A DNA stretch of 64,000 nt from Levilactobacillus brevis ATCC 14869 = DSM 20054 (GTDB taxonomy: Bacteria; Bacillota; Bacilli; Lactobacillales; Lactobacillaceae). The notes below the pieces were generated by a model. The model worked only from the letters and a program-made list of their open reading frames with translations, searched no databases and was not told the DNA's origin. The translations under genes and the position numbers were made by a program. Of this stretch, positions 31,724 through 38,349 are shown in pieces. Position 1 is the stretch's first letter. Every line of letters starts with the position of its first letter. Location: NCBI RefSeq assembly GCF_001433855.1, contig NZ_AZCP01000001.1:437187-501186 (forward strand), read 5' to 3'.

Positions 31724-31773
31724 AACCCAAAAAAGGAGTCTGAGACAAAAGTCTCAAACTCCTTTTTTGGGTT
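31724..31773. terminator. Bidirectional terminator
   Basis: AACCCAAAAAAGGAGT-TGAGAC and GTCTCA-ACTCCTTTTTTGGGTT form a very strong hairpin between the converging exporter and XrtG-locus genes. Confidence 0.9.
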
Positions 31774-31799: not shown

Positions 31800-33386
31800 T
31801 CACATACTCTCTTCGTCAGCAGCTATTGCCGCGGCTAACTTTTCAGTATACCAACCCCACAGTTGTCGCACATTAGCCACCGCTCGGTCGAACGAAAAGG
31901 CTGCTAGTAGTAACAGACACGGTAAATATTGAATTAAGTATCGACTACGACCACCTTCGAACAACAGTAAAAATAAGAAGCCGCCAACCATCGATAATCG
32001 TAGAATTTGAATGACGTGTCGCTGTGGCCCAAATCCCAATGCAATGATGCTTAACAGAATAATCCACCAGAATTGCGCGATAAACCGAAAATCAGCGATA
32101 TGCCGCCCATATAGATAGAGAAAATTCTTTAACTTGTTACTGATCCCCCGGTTATTTGGCCGCTGGTTATCATGAAAGAAGTGTCCTTCTTTCAGCCAAC
32201 CAAAGGTACCATCGGCCGTATTATTTCGTTGTTTCTTAACCAAAAAGGTCAAGTAGCCGATCGGTCCCAGCTTCTTTAATCGCTTCGTCAACATGGTAAC
32301 AGAGTAGTCCGTTTTTTGCTTAGATGTTGGTAATACTGCCATCTGAACAGCTTGTTTGGCACTATAGCCGCCCGAGCCATAGACCCCCATCGCCATAAAA
32401 TGAATGGCTGGAATTGCCCGAGCTTTGTTCAACTGAATATAAGTCTGACTCTGGACTTTCTGGTTAGCATACTGATACGTATGCCAAGCGCTTCCACCGA
32501 CCATGACTAGCAGTGCTACCGCCATAAACCATACCTGATCTGATACTGGTTTACGCCGAATGAACCACTCCAGCAACTCAATAATGACAATCGCAATGAC
32601 CGGGATAATGGCAGAAGGCTTGATAAAGTATGTCAACGTCACGCTAATACCAAAGCCGTTCGCTGCCAGCACGCGCACTAACGCGGGTAACGTGGACTTA
32701 CGCATCGCAAAATAGCAAAGCAGATAAATTGAGACCAGTGGTAATCCCCAAGCATCGGTGTACGGCATAATAATGCTGGGAAAAACCGCTAACCAGCCAA
32801 CATGCAGATAGATGGCTGCCCCCAATGCTCGCGGTCGCACTAACCACACACTAATCAAGTTGCAGATTGCCGACAGATCCACAAAGAATAGCGTTACAAA
32901 ATCAAAAAACAGCCACGAGGTTTGACCCGTTAGTTCGGTTAGCCAATGCATAAACAACATGATTGGCAGGTTGTTTTGGTTCAAACTGTAATAAGCCATA
33001 ACATTGACTTCTTGGACATGTTTGGCACTGGTTGCCGCATAATGAAGCATCCCGGCATCAAAACCACTGGCCGGATGAACAAAGATGATTAAGAAAATTT
33101 GCCCAGCAAGCACCACCCCGAGCATGATGCTGCCAGTTAATAGCCGTTTTTTAATGAACACAGCAACCAACCACGCGTGAATCTCTGGATAAGCATAATT
33201 CATGACTAACACGGCCACTAATCCCAACACCAGTCCGGTCGTCACCATGGTCGTACTGGTCCCAAACGTTGGATTATCCCCTAAAATAATATTGGGTGAT
33301 GTAATGGCAAAGAATAACATCAGAAAAAACAAAATTCGCCACGCCCAATTAATAACGGCTTGGCTGAATTGATAAAATCTATGCAT
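31800..33386 (-). CDS. XrtG-locus integral membrane protein (GT-C glycosyltransferase-like)
   Basis: Polytopic membrane protein of 528 residues with about a dozen segments. It resembles the conserved membrane protein found in exosortase-G loci of Firmicutes (TIGR03766-type). The early extracytoplasmic loop (FVHPASGFDAGMLHYAATSA) holds acidic residues, and NQNNLPIMLFMHWL and TYFIKPSAIIPV follow; this layout resembles lipid-linked-sugar GT-C transferases of the PMT/ArnT kind. It overlaps the PTPS-like gene by eight bases. Last gene of the locus. Its acceptor may be the Firmicu-CTERM protein; this is inferred from location. Confidence 0.7.
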   Translation of the reverse strand: MHRFYQFSQAVINWAWRILFFLMLFFAITSPNIILGDNPTFGTSTTMVTTGLVLGLVAVLVMNYAYPEIHAWLVAVFIKKRLLTGSIMLGVVLAGQIFLIIFVHPASGFDAGMLHYAATSAKHVQEVNVMAYYSLNQNNLPIMLFMHWLTELTGQTSWLFFDFVTLFFVDLSAICNLISVWLVRPRALGAAIYLHVGWLAVFPSIIMPYTDAWGLPLVSIYLLCYFAMRKSTLPALVRVLAANGFGISVTLTYFIKPSAIIPVIAIVIIELLEWFIRRKPVSDQVWFMAVALLVMVGGSAWHTYQYANQKVQSQTYIQLNKARAIPAIHFMAMGVYGSGGYSAKQAVQMAVLPTSKQKTDYSVTMLTKRLKKLGPIGYLTFLVKKQRNNTADGTFGWLKEGHFFHDNQRPNNRGISNKLKNFLYLYGRHIADFRFIAQFWWIILLSIIALGFGPQRHVIQILRLSMVGGFLFLLLFEGGRSRYLIQYLPCLLLLAAFSFDRAVANVRQLWGWYTEKLAAAIAADEESM

Positions 33387-33807
33387 CTATATCATCCTGT
33401 GACGCCGACTGATCTGGCAAAACTTCCGCCTCGGTTGGGAACTGGCGCTCAGTTATGTCGATACAATAAGATCGGGTTGGCGAGTCACTGACTTCAATTC
33501 GTAACAGAACAGCATTGTTTTGCCGCAAGATCGAATCAATCTCATTAAATAAATACTCAGTGACATTTTCCACCGTAGGATTAATCACCTGAAACTCGGG
33601 CAGATCATTGAGATATTGTCCCGACAAAGCATTAATAGCCTTATTTAAGGATTTTTCAATTTCAAAGAATGAAACCATCCCTTCAAACACATGAAGTTCA
33701 CAGACGATTTCCCAAGTATGGTTATGCTTTTTACCCGTCCCCGATTCCCATCGAACCGCATGACTGGCATTAACATAGGATTTGATTTTATAAGAGCGTT
33801 GTTTCAT
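33379..33807 (-). CDS. 6-pyruvoyl-tetrahydropterin-synthase-like protein of the XrtG locus
   Basis: Protein of 142 residues. The T-fold zinc triad is retained: His16 in NASHAVRW, and His28 and His30 in KKHNHTWEI. The closing PTVENVTEYLFNEID motif is also as in QueD/PTPS. The cysteine that normally sits just before the HxH pair is absent, and the late glutamate motif (WETPT-type) reads SDSPTRSYC. It belongs to the PTPS-related family known next to XrtG (TIGR03112-type). The start is ATG 33807, two bases after the glycosyltransferase stop. Whether it acts on a pterin or on a sugar is not known. Confidence 0.75.
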   Translation of the reverse strand: MKQRSYKIKSYVNASHAVRWESGTGKKHNHTWEIVCELHVFEGMVSFFEIEKSLNKAINALSGQYLNDLPEFQVINPTVENVTEYLFNEIDSILRQNNAVLLRIEVSDSPTRSYCIDITERQFPTEAEVLPDQSASQDDIDA

Positions 33808-33809
33808 TG

Positions 33810-35171
33810 CTAATCTCGCTTTCCTTTCCGTGCTTGCCGCCATCGTTGCCGGATTGTCTGGACATCATCACGAATAACGGCGGTTAATCGGTTCTTTTCC
33901 TCCGATAAGCCCCGCATCTTCCATGAAGCCTTCGTCGTCATCGCGTTAATAATCCCAATTAAACGAATCCAAGAACAAATGAACATATATACAGGTAACG
34001 TCAACGTTACCCACCACAACCGTAAATAAAAACGTTGCTCCGTCGGGTACGGTTGTAACAGGATGCTCACACTCACAAAGTTGACCACCGCAACGACAAC
34101 GTATAGGGCATAAATCAACAGGTATGACAACAGCAGAATCAGTGATGAATAACCAAAGGCAATTAAAACGACTGTGGCAAATGTCCAGATCATTCTGGGA
34201 AATGTAAACGTATGGTCAATCATCATTCGTCGAACTAAGAAGTTTTTAAAAAATCGTTTTAAACTAGCCGTTTGCTTCATATAGTTTTCGGTAACTTCCA
34301 ACTCACCGCGCTGCCAGCGCTGGCGTTGTGTATACAGTTCAGAAAAACCAGAGATCGGCTCAACATAAAAGATGGCATCGGCACAAATAACCACTTTTTT
34401 ACCTAACCGGGTACGAATCTGAAACGTCATATCCGTGTCCTCACCGATGGTATCAATATCATACAAGAACGTCTCCATTAAGACTTCCCGTCGGAATGCT
34501 GAAAACGCACCGGACATGGTAAATAACTGATCGCGTGACGCTTCAATCGTTCGTCCCGATAAGAAGGCCTGCGCGTACTCATAGTATTCGTTCTTGGCCA
34601 ATAGCCGGTGACCGAACCCCTTGACCTTTTGAACCAGTTCCTCTTTTGGTAGGATCGCGCCAGTCATAGCCGCAATACTTAAATCATTTTCAAAACGCAA
34701 TACCATATTCTTAACAGCATTCTTTTCTAACAACCCATCGCTGTCAATATTAATCACGTAAATACCAATACTTTCGTAAATCGCCGTATTTAACGCCCGG
34801 GCTTTCCCCTTATCAGTATTCACATAACGTAAAATCAATTCAGGAAAGGTGTTTTGTGCCCGGGCATACGCTCCAAAGCTGCCATCGGTACTCTGATTGT
34901 CAGCTAGAATAATTTGCATGGCCTCTTTAGGATAGGTTTGCTCATTAATTGATTGAATACACTCAAACAGCGTGTCCTCCGAGTTATAAACGGGAACAAT
35001 GATCGTCACCCACGGCCACTTACCAGGCGGCGTTAATTTCGGCTCATGACGATGCAAGTGCATCAGCTTAGCCGTTGAGATCAAAGCCGGGATAATTTCA
35101 ACCACAATGGGGATCAGCGCCCAAGTAATCCAGAAGCCCATCCGCGTCAAGGCTAAATTGATCCAGTACAT
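33810..35171 (-). CDS. Family 2 glycosyltransferase of the XrtG locus
   Basis: Membrane-bound GT2 protein of about 453 residues. After an N-terminal helix the catalytic domain has VPVYNSEDTLFECIQSI, the DNQSTDGS loop, the metal motif INIDSDG, GAFSAFRREVL and GEDTDMTFQIR, and QRWQRGELE resembling the QxxRW of processive transferases. Two or three C-terminal helices follow. This matches the XrtG-associated transferase family (TIGR03111-type). ATG 35171 touches the XrtG stop (TGATG); a GGAGG ribosome binding site lies 14 bases upstream and GTG 35174 is an alternative start. Confidence 0.85.
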   Translation of the reverse strand: MYWINLALTRMGFWITWALIPIVVEIIPALISTAKLMHLHRHEPKLTPPGKWPWVTIIVPVYNSEDTLFECIQSINEQTYPKEAMQIILADNQSTDGSFGAYARAQNTFPELILRYVNTDKGKARALNTAIYESIGIYVINIDSDGLLEKNAVKNMVLRFENDLSIAAMTGAILPKEELVQKVKGFGHRLLAKNEYYEYAQAFLSGRTIEASRDQLFTMSGAFSAFRREVLMETFLYDIDTIGEDTDMTFQIRTRLGKKVVICADAIFYVEPISGFSELYTQRQRWQRGELEVTENYMKQTASLKRFFKNFLVRRMMIDHTFTFPRMIWTFATVVLIAFGYSSLILLLSYLLIYALYVVVAVVNFVSVSILLQPYPTEQRFYLRLWWVTLTLPVYMFICSWIRLIGIINAMTTKASWKMRGLSEEKNRLTAVIRDDVQTIRQRWRQARKGKRD

Positions 35172-35770
35172 CACGACTTTTCTTGCCTCCAATCAATGAA
35201 TTCCCGATAGATACCTCGTGCCAATTGCGAATACGTGAAGACATTGTAATACAGCGCAATCACCAAAACATAAAATAGTAACCGACCAATCACGGAGTGG
35301 GCTAGGAAAAAGGTCTCACCGCCGCCAAAGTGCACGATGATAATCACAACCACCAGCCGTAAAACATTGATTGCGTAGATATACAGCACACCGAAGACCG
35401 CGTAGAAGACTTTTTCCTTTCGCTGATACATCGGGAAAAAGACCACCAAGGCTACGAAGGCACACGTCTCAATAATGCCTGAGCACTCGTAATCAATTGA
35501 CATCACTACGGGATTGCCCGTATTAGTAATATAAACCAATCCCATTTTGAACATAATCGTACACCAATGTGACAAGGTGCCAAAGAAAGCCACACCGTGA
35601 ATCACGGCATGCGTAAAGAACCATACCCAATATGGCCGGCTAATCGCGGTTAAAATGAAAAAAAGCCCGGCACTCCCCACAATAAAATAGAAGGCAGATA
35701 ACCGCGCTCGCTTGAGCACTGAAAGTCCATATAGCCATATCACAATGCCCAATAGGATTTTGATATTCAT
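35171..35770 (-). CDS. xrtG: Exosortase family protein XrtG
   Basis: Membrane protease/transpeptidase homolog of 199 residues with about six helices. The exosortase catalytic set is visible: Cys96 in DYECSGIIE, Arg138 in INVLRLV and His158 in FLAHSVIGR. Exosortases recognise a C-terminal tripartite signal (motif, helix, basic tail) and cut or transfer the protein. AGGACGGATACGT precedes the ATG. It lies directly downstream of its presumed substrate and overlaps the glycosyltransferase by one base, so the set is one functional unit. Confidence 0.88.
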   Translation of the reverse strand: MNIKILLGIVIWLYGLSVLKRARLSAFYFIVGSAGLFFILTAISRPYWVWFFTHAVIHGVAFFGTLSHWCTIMFKMGLVYITNTGNPVVMSIDYECSGIIETCAFVALVVFFPMYQRKEKVFYAVFGVLYIYAINVLRLVVVIIIVHFGGGETFFLAHSVIGRLLFYVLVIALYYNVFTYSQLARGIYREFIDWRQEKS

Positions 35771-35887
35771 ACGTATCCGTCCTAATTAATCAACTTATCA
35801 AACGTTCTCGTTAGCCAATTACCGTCAGCTCACCACTTTGATCGTGGCAATCACTAACTATCAATCACAAACCATTATCATACCACA

Positions 35888-37108
35888 CTATTTACCGGAA
35901 GTGGATGTTTTTGATCGACCAAGCCTACCGGATTTACGTAACCGCCAGTAACCTAGTCCCGCAATAACCACACCGATTCCAGCAATGACATACGGCCCAG
36001 TTGAACCACCGGCCACCGTCACTTTTTCATTACCAATATTTGGATTATACATCGTAATCGTTTGTCCAGTCATTGTCGATAGATTGAACTTTCTTAGATC
36101 CACTTTAAATTCAGCAATATTATGACCATCTTCGGAAGAGACATAACCATCACCAACGGTGCCGTATTGGCCGCCTTCGTTCCATTTACCACCAGTAAAG
36201 CTGACAGCCTTAGCATCGCCCGCACTCACCGGACTAGTTGGCATTTCCTTAGACCAAACGTAGTACTTCTGACCACCAATATCAAAGTTATAGTCACCAT
36301 AGCCCGGAACTAAGCCATACTTCATTTTGACATAAACGTAGACGTAATTGCCATCACTAACCATGGCGGTATAGCCATTGTACCCTTCAGTTAAGGTAAC
36401 ATGCTTCCAGTCAGCAAACTTACCGTCAATCACAATATTTAAGTTATCATTATCGTTATTGGCATTACCGTCCGTGGTAGTCGTTGCCTTAGACGATTGG
36501 TCTTCTTTACCCGCAACCACACCAGTTGCACTTGATGAGCTCGCACTATCGCTAGTCGCCGCGTTCGTCAGATCGTCAACCGTTGTTGAAGCCGAGTCAC
36601 TACCAATGTTGGGGTTGGCCATCGTGACGGATTTGCCATTAGCCGCTTTCGTCAAGCCCAAAGCCGTCAAATCCACTCGAAATTCCGCAAGGTTGTGCGT
36701 GCCATCATTTGATACATAGCCAGTTCCCACAGCACCATACTGCGTGCCTTCATTGGTCTTACCACCAGTAAACGTCACCTTTTTAGTTTCCCCTTTACTG
36801 ACGTTACTTGGAATATTATCTGACCAAATGTAGTATTTTTGCCCGTCAATCGTGAAATTATAATCCCCATAACCAGGTACGGGACCATTTTTCATCTTCA
36901 CGTAAACCTCAACGTATTTCCCGGAACTCACAAGTGCCGTGTCCCCATTATAGCCTTCGGTTAAATTAGCATCTTGCCAATCAGAAAAATTGCCATCAAT
37001 GGCCACTGATGAACTAGCCGCTGCCGCCAACGTTGGTTCCGTGACGATTGCCGTTCCTGCAAGTCCTAACGCTACTGCTCCAGCTAAAATAATCTTTTGT
37101 AATTTCAT
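35888..37108 (-). CDS. Firmicu-CTERM surface protein, likely XrtG substrate
   Basis: Secreted protein of 406 residues. Signal peptide to about residue 31 (LGLAGTAIVTEPTLAAAA). Two tandem homologous domains, about 33-165 and 225-362, each start IDGxFxDWxxxxLTEGYNG and contain GYGDYNFxIxGQKYYxW and GGxxNEGxQYGxVGxGYVS; they resemble DOMON/CBM9-like carbohydrate-binding folds. A Ser/Thr/Asp linker joins them. The end is GGSTGPYVIAGIGVVIAGLGY, a helix, then a basic tail (WRLRKSGRLGRSK), the sorting-signal layout used by exosortases. GGGAGCAGGG before the ATG. Confidence 0.85.
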   Translation of the reverse strand: MKLQKIILAGAVALGLAGTAIVTEPTLAAAASSSVAIDGNFSDWQDANLTEGYNGDTALVSSGKYVEVYVKMKNGPVPGYGDYNFTIDGQKYYIWSDNIPSNVSKGETKKVTFTGGKTNEGTQYGAVGTGYVSNDGTHNLAEFRVDLTALGLTKAANGKSVTMANPNIGSDSASTTVDDLTNAATSDSASSSSATGVVAGKEDQSSKATTTTDGNANNDNDNLNIVIDGKFADWKHVTLTEGYNGYTAMVSDGNYVYVYVKMKYGLVPGYGDYNFDIGGQKYYVWSKEMPTSPVSAGDAKAVSFTGGKWNEGGQYGTVGDGYVSSEDGHNIAEFKVDLRKFNLSTMTGQTITMYNPNIGNEKVTVAGGSTGPYVIAGIGVVIAGLGYWRLRKSGRLGRSKTSTSGK

Positions 37109-37420: not shown

Positions 37421-37624
37421 TTACTCTTCAACGTATTGTAGAATATCACCTGGCTGACAATCCAGTGCCTGACAAATCTTCTCTAATGTACTGAACCGGA
37501 TTGCCTTAGCCTTGCCCGTTTTCAAAATTGATAAATTGGCAGGTGTAATGCCGACCAACTGGGCCAATTCTTGGCTACTGATGTTATGTTCTGCCATCAC
37601 AACGTTTAGCGTTAATTTAATCAC
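37421..37624 (-). CDS. XRE-family small regulator (YozG/Cro-like)
   Basis: Helix-turn-helix protein of 67 residues (LNVVMAEHNISSQELAQLVGITPANLSILKTGKAKAIRFSTLEKICQALDCQPGDILQY), i.e. essentially a bare Cro/C1 domain. GTG start behind GAAGGTGACG. It follows the DUF2975 gene by 19 bp. XRE-DUF2975 pairs are common in lactobacilli; the membrane partner may modulate this DNA-binding protein. Confidence 0.82.
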   Translation of the reverse strand: MIKLTLNVVMAEHNISSQELAQLVGITPANLSILKTGKAKAIRFSTLEKICQALDCQPGDILQYVEE

Positions 37625-37643
37625 ACCGTCACCTTCCCATCAT

Positions 37644-38219
37644 TCAAACGGTCAAGTCATTCTCAGCCTTGATGGCCATCGCATGCTGGTACGTCACATA
37701 GATGGCTCCCAAGGCAATCGCGACAAATAAATCATCGAAACAAGTCGGCCACGTTGCCGAAGCAACACCGTTGTTAATGCGGAAGAACCAACTACTAGAC
37801 AGCTGGTTCCCACTAGCCATAAATACATCGGCTACCACCATCACCAATTGGGCCATCACCATTGTTTTTAACGAGCCAACATTCTCTGTAGAAAAATAGT
37901 GTTGTTGATCAATATTTTCCAAAATTTCCAATAACGCTCGCAAGAACTTAATACCAGCCCATACATTGATGGCAATCCCAATGGCCATCAAAATAGCATA
38001 TGGCCAACTGGGAAAACTCTGCATCACGGCCGCAGAAATGACATGCCTTCCTGGCGTCAATAAAAAATCATCCCCGGTTAAAATACTATTAACGATACGG
38101 CCGGAAATTGCTTCGTATAGGTAATAAAACGGTACGATAAAGCAAAGATACATGAAGAACACTGCAATATTACCAAAAATCATAATCGCGTTTAGTCCCG
38201 CACTCAACCACTTTGACAT
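37644..38219 (-). CDS. DUF2975 family membrane protein
   Basis: Membrane protein of 191 residues with four segments (about 15-40, 75-100, 120-145, 160-180). Start at ATG 38219 after AAAGGGAG; the frame is open 13 codons further without a ribosome binding site. It is coupled with the YozG-like regulator downstream. Function is unknown; the pair may be a small membrane-sensing switch. Confidence 0.7.
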   Translation of the reverse strand: MSKWLSAGLNAIMIFGNIAVFFMYLCFIVPFYYLYEAISGRIVNSILTGDDFLLTPGRHVISAAVMQSFPSWPYAILMAIGIAINVWAGIKFLRALLEILENIDQQHYFSTENVGSLKTMVMAQLVMVVADVFMASGNQLSSSWFFRINNGVASATWPTCFDDLFVAIALGAIYVTYQHAMAIKAENDLTV

Positions 38220-38349
38220 GATTAGCATCTCCCTTTTACTCATTTTCGATAATAGCATATCGATAAACGATAATCAATAATTGTTTCTCAATAATTTTAA
38301 CGTTTAACTAACCATAGCATTTATATCCCATGCCTATTTTCTGAGGGCA

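Follow-up and report, generated by a model that had tools for sequence, protein, structure and literature searches.

An XrtG/Firmicu-CTERM locus of Levilactobacillus brevis with a proposed link to surface polysaccharide, and a fused, Cys-less variant among its relatives

What does an exosortase-family protein with a single dedicated substrate do among glycosyltransferase genes in a Gram-positive bacterium? We address this question for the xrtG locus of Levilactobacillus brevis ATCC 14869, which lies in a 64,000-nt stretch of contig NZ_AZCP01000001.1 (hereafter the window, whose own coordinates are used). We consider it somewhat probable that the locus is an XrtG/Firmicu-CTERM system coupled to a synthase-type surface polysaccharide, and that XrtG would process and anchor a beta-sandwich protein in it. 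What can be read directly from the sequence is the set of five families and its order, the substrate signal and tail, the XrtG triad, the GT2 motifs and the loss of PTPS catalysis; from there we infer the cutting, the acceptor and the glycan. The locus is a further, ordinary member of the known XrtG system of Lactobacillaceae, and alignment with its relatives (122 in all) adds a clear variant outside the window, a fused and Cys-less exosortase. Five minus-strand open reading frames (ORFs), which a sequence-only reading had placed at 31800-37108, were confirmed by reading the strand. The features are as follows.

35888..37108, minus strand: Firmicu-CTERM surface protein, 406 amino acids (aa), with N-terminal hydrophobic signal, two predicted beta-sandwich repeats and C-terminal sorting tail (TIGR04145, 262.6 bits; AlphaFold2)
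35888..36010, minus strand: CTERM sorting tail, with GGSTGP, hydrophobic helix and basic residues (residue conservation in 36 CTERM proteins)
35171..35770, minus strand: xrtG, exosortase-family membrane protein, 199 aa (TIGR03110, 260.9 bits; TIGR04178, 65 bits)
33810..35171, minus strand: GT2 glycosyltransferase of processive-synthase type, 453 aa (TIGR03111, 690.9 bits; PgaC/IcaA, 116.5 bits)
33379..33807, minus strand: PTPS-like protein, 142 aa, histidine (zinc-type) motif kept, catalytic Cys absent (TIGR03112, 128.7 bits)
31800..33386, minus strand: TIGR03766 multi-pass membrane protein, 528 aa, predicted extracytoplasmic GT-C-like glycosyltransferase (TIGR03766, 721.8 bits)
31726..31771, minus strand: terminator-like hairpin at the end of the unit (20-pair stem, then T-rich tail)

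The CTERM gene lies upstream of xrtG at an intergenic distance of 117 nt, and the last four genes overlap or touch, as the sequence-only reading had it: the GT2 start is most likely ATG 35171, giving a 1-nt overlap with xrtG, and 2 nt separate GT2 from the PTPS-like gene, which in turn shares 8 nt with the TIGR03766 gene. A promoter scan stayed at chance level (13 found, 12.9 expected). Families were assigned by hmmscan against NCBIfam with its curated cut-offs, with Pfam as a second library. All five proteins belong, well above the cut-offs, to the families that had been named for them from the letters: TIGR04145 (cut-off 50, with two repeats matched), TIGR03110 (102.75, covering positions 2-185 of 187), TIGR03111 (363.95), TIGR03112 (69.35) and TIGR03766 (500). 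Pfam confirmed the GT2 and PTPS assignments, gave a marginal exosortase match, and had no match for the TIGR03766 protein.

The exosortase triad of the window XrtG is Cys96 (35483-35485), Arg138 (35357-35359) and His158 (35297-35299), correctly placed when aligned with 121 relatives, and the protein also matches the exosortase/archaeosortase signature TIGR04178. Among the 122 distinct XrtG proteins Arg138 and Asn135 are invariant (122/122), His158 is found wherever the site is covered (121 proteins), and Cys96 is present in 110. No solved structure was detectable from the XrtG profile, and the literature searched yielded no biochemical test of a Gram-positive XrtG.

Its presumed substrate has the domain, signature, helix and basic tail of a Firmicu-CTERM protein, the tail running from GGSTGP through the helix to RLRK. 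Gly367, Gly368, Ser369, Thr370 and Gly379 are invariant among 36 CTERM proteins, and Gly371 and Pro372 are kept in at least 90%; the general motif directly ahead of the helix is of the type (G/S/T)-T-G-(P/G). That XrtG has a single substrate holds for this genome (2.47 Mb, 11 contigs), which has one xrtG and one Firmicu-CTERM gene and in which GGSTGP can be read once, a second DNA match having Cys where Ser is expected; as a general rule it fails, four loci from genomes of the same genus (L068, L083, L089 and L090) having two CTERM genes. Some Levilactobacillus genomes carry two xrtG loci, mostly of different clades (L068/L062, L069/L060, L079/L090 and L077/L089); their substrates are either long with two repeats or short, and some short ones end in TGG, not TGP.

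AlphaFold2 gave two well-predicted beta domains for the window CTERM protein (pLDDT, the program's confidence score, mostly >90), and the substrate domain is, on these models, a beta-sandwich; we claim no finer fold. A specific fold was rejected for the window protein, for which Foldseek gave only unspecific antibody-like beta-sandwich matches, as was ethylbenzene dehydrogenase gamma for the fused protein described below (Foldseek E 0.045), and a sequence-profile search with the substrate domain gave nothing significant. Clostridial and lactobacillar substrate domains are likely homologous, judging by an hhalign match over the C-terminal part only (98%), a match of the fused N-terminal domain across 33 columns (95%) and weak TIGR04145 matches to the N-terminal part; full-length homology is not proven by these.

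The GT2 protein keeps DxD (D143, D145), ED (E244, D245) and Q282-R283-x-R285-W286, each in at least 119 of 120 proteins. PgaC/IcaA (TIGR03937) is the next best family, and the protein falls outside it (cut-off 422.3). Such motifs characterise processive polysaccharide synthases; together with the PgaC/IcaA match they speak for a separate glycan polymer as the predicted product. The TIGR03766 protein is a predicted GT-C glycosyltransferase by NCBI naming and by inference. Homology between TIGR03766 and PF10131, the family of the large membrane protein in clostridial loci, was tried and rejected (hhalign probability 6%).

How constant is this company? We compared flanks in 48 loci and a further 80 named loci, and counted neighbours in the 79 distinct loci flanked by 5 kb or more on both sides. 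A TIGR03111-type GT2 gene stands on the same strand within 100 bp of XrtG in 77 of the 79, and a CTERM-type domain is close by or fused in 76; PTPS occurs in 67, TIGR03766 in 54 and PF10131 in 18, one or the other of the last two being present in 72. Fusions tie the parts more closely. In Thermincola-type genomes (L091, L098-L100) the target domain and tail form the C-terminal end of a PTPS-PF10131 membrane protein (about 1300 aa where complete; 18 distinct PTPS-PF10131 fusions were found), and XrtG there keeps its Cys. Elsewhere the domain is fused to XrtG itself. Different lineages thus join the domain to XrtG or to a membrane glycan protein, which argues for one predicted physical machine; the two independent fusions, one with Cys lost and one with Cys kept, suggest that the target domain must stay beside that machine.

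Further pointers to a polysaccharide come from the operons of relatives. In a second family of Lactobacillales the run of genes at two loci (L064 and L066) includes GGDEF, placed between the genes for TIGR03766 and CTERM, and in L064 an EAL gene was confirmed inside the XrtG operon (cyclic di-GMP genes at L064 1769-3663 and L066 1781-3049); GGDEF genes are also close to xrtG in L138 and L163. This placement fits exopolysaccharide under cyclic di-GMP control; the window operon has no cyclic di-GMP gene adjacent to it. The clostridial loci have nearby a GtrB-type GT2, an EamA/SMR-type transporter and DUF2304, the set that usually supplies an extracytoplasmic GT-C enzyme (PMC11127046).

We therefore propose, for XrtG coupled to polysaccharide synthesis, the following course. 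The CTERM protein would be exported and held by its own C-terminal helix. XrtG would cut at or just past GGSTG(P) by means of Cys96 with Arg138 and His158, and the acyl-enzyme would be handed on; its acceptor, made or presented by the neighbouring enzymes, would be in the membrane or on the growing glycan. GT2 would polymerise and extrude the glycan; the TIGR03766 protein may add or transfer sugars outside from a polyprenyl-phosphate donor. The PTPS-like protein would not be a pterin enzyme; it would belong to the synthase on the cytoplasmic side, as a structural component or a sensor. The beta-sandwich protein would end fixed beside or on the polysaccharide that it helps to assemble, retain or recognise.

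Several points weigh against this proposal. The relation of TIGR03766 to PF10131 is undetected, so the clostridial GT-C argument reaches the window by position only. Some otherwise complete loci have no PTPS or GT-C slot. In the literature searched we found no demonstrated cleavage, acceptor or glycan for any XrtG. Finally, there is a clade in which XrtG persists without its presumed nucleophile.

This last point needs fuller treatment. Clostridial XrtG proteins are of two types, one of which (in Syntrophomonas wolfei, Desulforamulus putei, Peptococcaceae BRH_c4b and others) has a domain of about 200 residues ahead of the XrtG part. That domain is homologous to a free protein encoded directly upstream of xrtG in sister genomes (hhalign 100%, E 1e-52), and the homology stops at GDIQW-x-P-x-P; beyond it the free protein continues into a helix and basic tail, the fusion into XrtG's own first helix. 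The Cys column follows the same division without exception: all 110 unfused proteins have Cys, and the 12 fused ones have Asn (11) or Ser (1). Arg138 and Asn135 remain in 12/12 fused proteins, and His158 in 11/11 covering it. The Desulforamulus protein (L111) is counted here as fused, its ORF beginning within the domain; at L111 200-7900 the fused gene is without most of the target domain, and its immediate upstream ORFs, judged by eye, resemble phage genes, which suggests an insertion. For the loss of Cys, the unbiased evidence is that from hidden Markov model searches, the pattern scan of genome contigs having permitted only Cys or Asn at the site. The codons there are AGT for Ser and AAT or AAC for Asn, allowing a one-step path TGT-AGT-AAT.

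Because the fused proteins form one clade in the tree (100/95, one change), we count fusion and Cys loss as a single evolutionary event, assigned by the tree to one stem branch. The clade is a deep lineage, from Peptococcaceae to Syntrophomonadaceae, with isolates included. The simplest reading is that covalent tethering of the domain made cutting unnecessary, the rest of the site having presumably retained a function; Asn-based chemistry may also operate in this clade. A model of the fused protein was well predicted in the XrtG part but had pLDDT <50 at the junction (188-202), and so was not used to place the recognition motif relative to the active site of XrtG. The open-licence literature, to which the search was confined, held nothing on pseudo-exosortases or exosortases lacking the catalytic Cys.

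The fused clade bears most directly on the idea that XrtG serves chiefly as a receptor or scaffold in the membrane, holding the CTERM beta-sandwich domain at the synthase, cutting being lineage-specific or minor. A long-lived clade that has dropped the target helix and basic tail and replaced Cys with Asn or Ser, with the other three site residues invariant, is what this idea would lead one to expect. On the other side, every unfused protein across Bacillota and Chloroflexota keeps its Cys, which implies selection for chemistry there, and fusion and Cys loss on one stem branch amount to one event. We regard a mainly scaffolding XrtG as rather unlikely. Possible, if doubtful, is the wider proposition that the core job of XrtG is to hold a beta-sandwich partner at a polysaccharide synthase with cutting optional, the Syntrophomonas/Peptococcaceae 'pseudo-exosortase', fused to a former substrate that ends at the recognition motif, working with Asn or Ser in place of Cys.

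A second alternative accepts cutting and separates it from the glycan: after the cut XrtG would attach the protein to a lipid or a lipid-linked amine, the role proposed for archaeosortase and rhombosortase, while the product of the adjacent glycosyltransferases would be unrelated. The precedent is ArtA, which is of the Cys/Arg/Arg type and whose substrate acquires a lipid anchor (PMC9263693), and XrtG shares the TIGR04178 signature with exosortases and archaeosortases. But GT2 adjoins XrtG almost without fail over several phyla, and the Thermincola-type fusions join the target domain to a PTPS-PF10131 protein, so that the glycan genes are not bystanders; we find this alternative improbable on balance.

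The sequence-only reading had proposed a joint function in which C-terminal cutting might be coupled to glycosylation or lipid attachment of the surface protein. Its general part, a coupling of XrtG, substrate and glycosyltransferases, has strong support from conservation and gene fusions; nothing that we found supports glycosylation of the protein itself, and for lipid attachment the evidence speaks neither way. That both glycosyltransferases modify the CTERM protein in step with its cutting would suit the tight packing of the genes and the naming of these enzymes as XrtG-associated, but the GT2 motifs and PgaC/IcaA-like layout are the polymer-synthase pattern and the cluster yielded no oligosaccharyltransferase family, which makes it quite unlikely.

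Least probable by far is a PTPS-like protein that supplies the system with a pterin or queuosine precursor. The protein does match TIGR03112 and PF01242 and keeps the three zinc-site histidines His16, His28 and His30 (in 82, 82 and 83 of 85 proteins), but a Cys within six residues ahead of HxH occurs in 0/85, scores for the PTPS/QueD enzyme families (TIGR03367, TIGR00039) fall under their cut-offs, and the domain is also fused to membrane proteins. A role as a pterin enzyme is unlikely because the catalytic Cys is never present despite the kept zinc-type histidines. At L166 8545-9078 a PTPS-like domain is fused behind the first membrane helix of a GT2 whose catalytic part is missing.

Comparison with known systems places the locus further. 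Exosortase G with a CTERM protein and two glycosyltransferases has been named as a complete system in L. plantarum (LP_RS09090-LP_RS09075; PMC12854382), with higher transcript levels in strains that are strong inducers of interferon; the published evidence is at transcript level only. The window shares with it the CTERM protein, the exosortase and the two XrtG-associated glycosyltransferases; it also has a PTPS gene, which is not within the flank of the L. plantarum relative (L136). The exosortase/PEP-CTERM and archaeosortase/PGF-CTERM systems (PMC1569441, PMC9263693) likewise combine a Cys-Arg-His or Cys-Arg-Arg polytopic enzyme, a tripartite C-terminal signal and a surface-polysaccharide link. 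Unlike them, the window XrtG has one dedicated substrate rather than many, a GGSTGP-type signal and a Gram-positive envelope, and XrtG almost always adjoins one GT2. PgaC/IcaA (poly-N-acetylglucosamine) and cellulose synthases are likewise GT2 enzymes with DxD, ED, QxxRW and C-terminal hydrophobic segments, and share GGDEF/EAL genes with the operons of some XrtG relatives; compared with PgaC/IcaA the window has the extra XrtG, CTERM, PTPS-like and TIGR03766 parts. The clostridial loci resemble GtrA/GtrB/GT-C three-component glycosylation in their GtrB-like GT2, small EamA-type transporter and large PF10131 protein (PMC11127046), whereas no donor genes were seen in the window operon.

The distribution of xrtG is patchy. 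It occurs in 21 of 36 genomes of the genus, 14/295 of the order sample, 16/398 of the phylum sample (11 above the cut-off) and 20/299 genomes of one further family, probably Lachnospiraceae by the tree; further class-level samples gave only matches already known. A Candidatus Methanovirga australis contig from a metagenome-assembled genome (L163 3832-10797; 10.9 kb, G+C 27%) has XrtG, GT2, TIGR03766 and CTERM with GGDEF and EAL genes; its binning to a methanogen reflects either transfer from a lactobacillus-like donor or mis-binning. Levilactobacillus brevis CD0817 (L088 6730-7990, same as L127) has an xrtG interrupted by an insert of about 1.2 kb encoding a 391-aa transposase-like protein, IS256 type by eye, with the remaining operon intact, and is thus a natural xrtG mutant. 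At L122 8037-9485 (G011), XrtG and GT2 form a single 482-aa ORF without part of the GT2 catalytic core, either degenerate or an assembly artefact. In the window itself, an HTH_26 regulator gene stands beside that of a DUF2975 membrane protein at 37421-38258, on the same strand and upstream of the CTERM gene.

The window thus presents a compact single-substrate system in a culturable and harmless genus, in which cleavage, acceptor and glycan are accessible to genetics. The fusions suggest that XrtG, the substrate domain and the glycosyltransferases form a physical complex, and the fused, Cys-less clade is a natural experiment on which output of XrtG is the essential one, cleavage or tethering alone.

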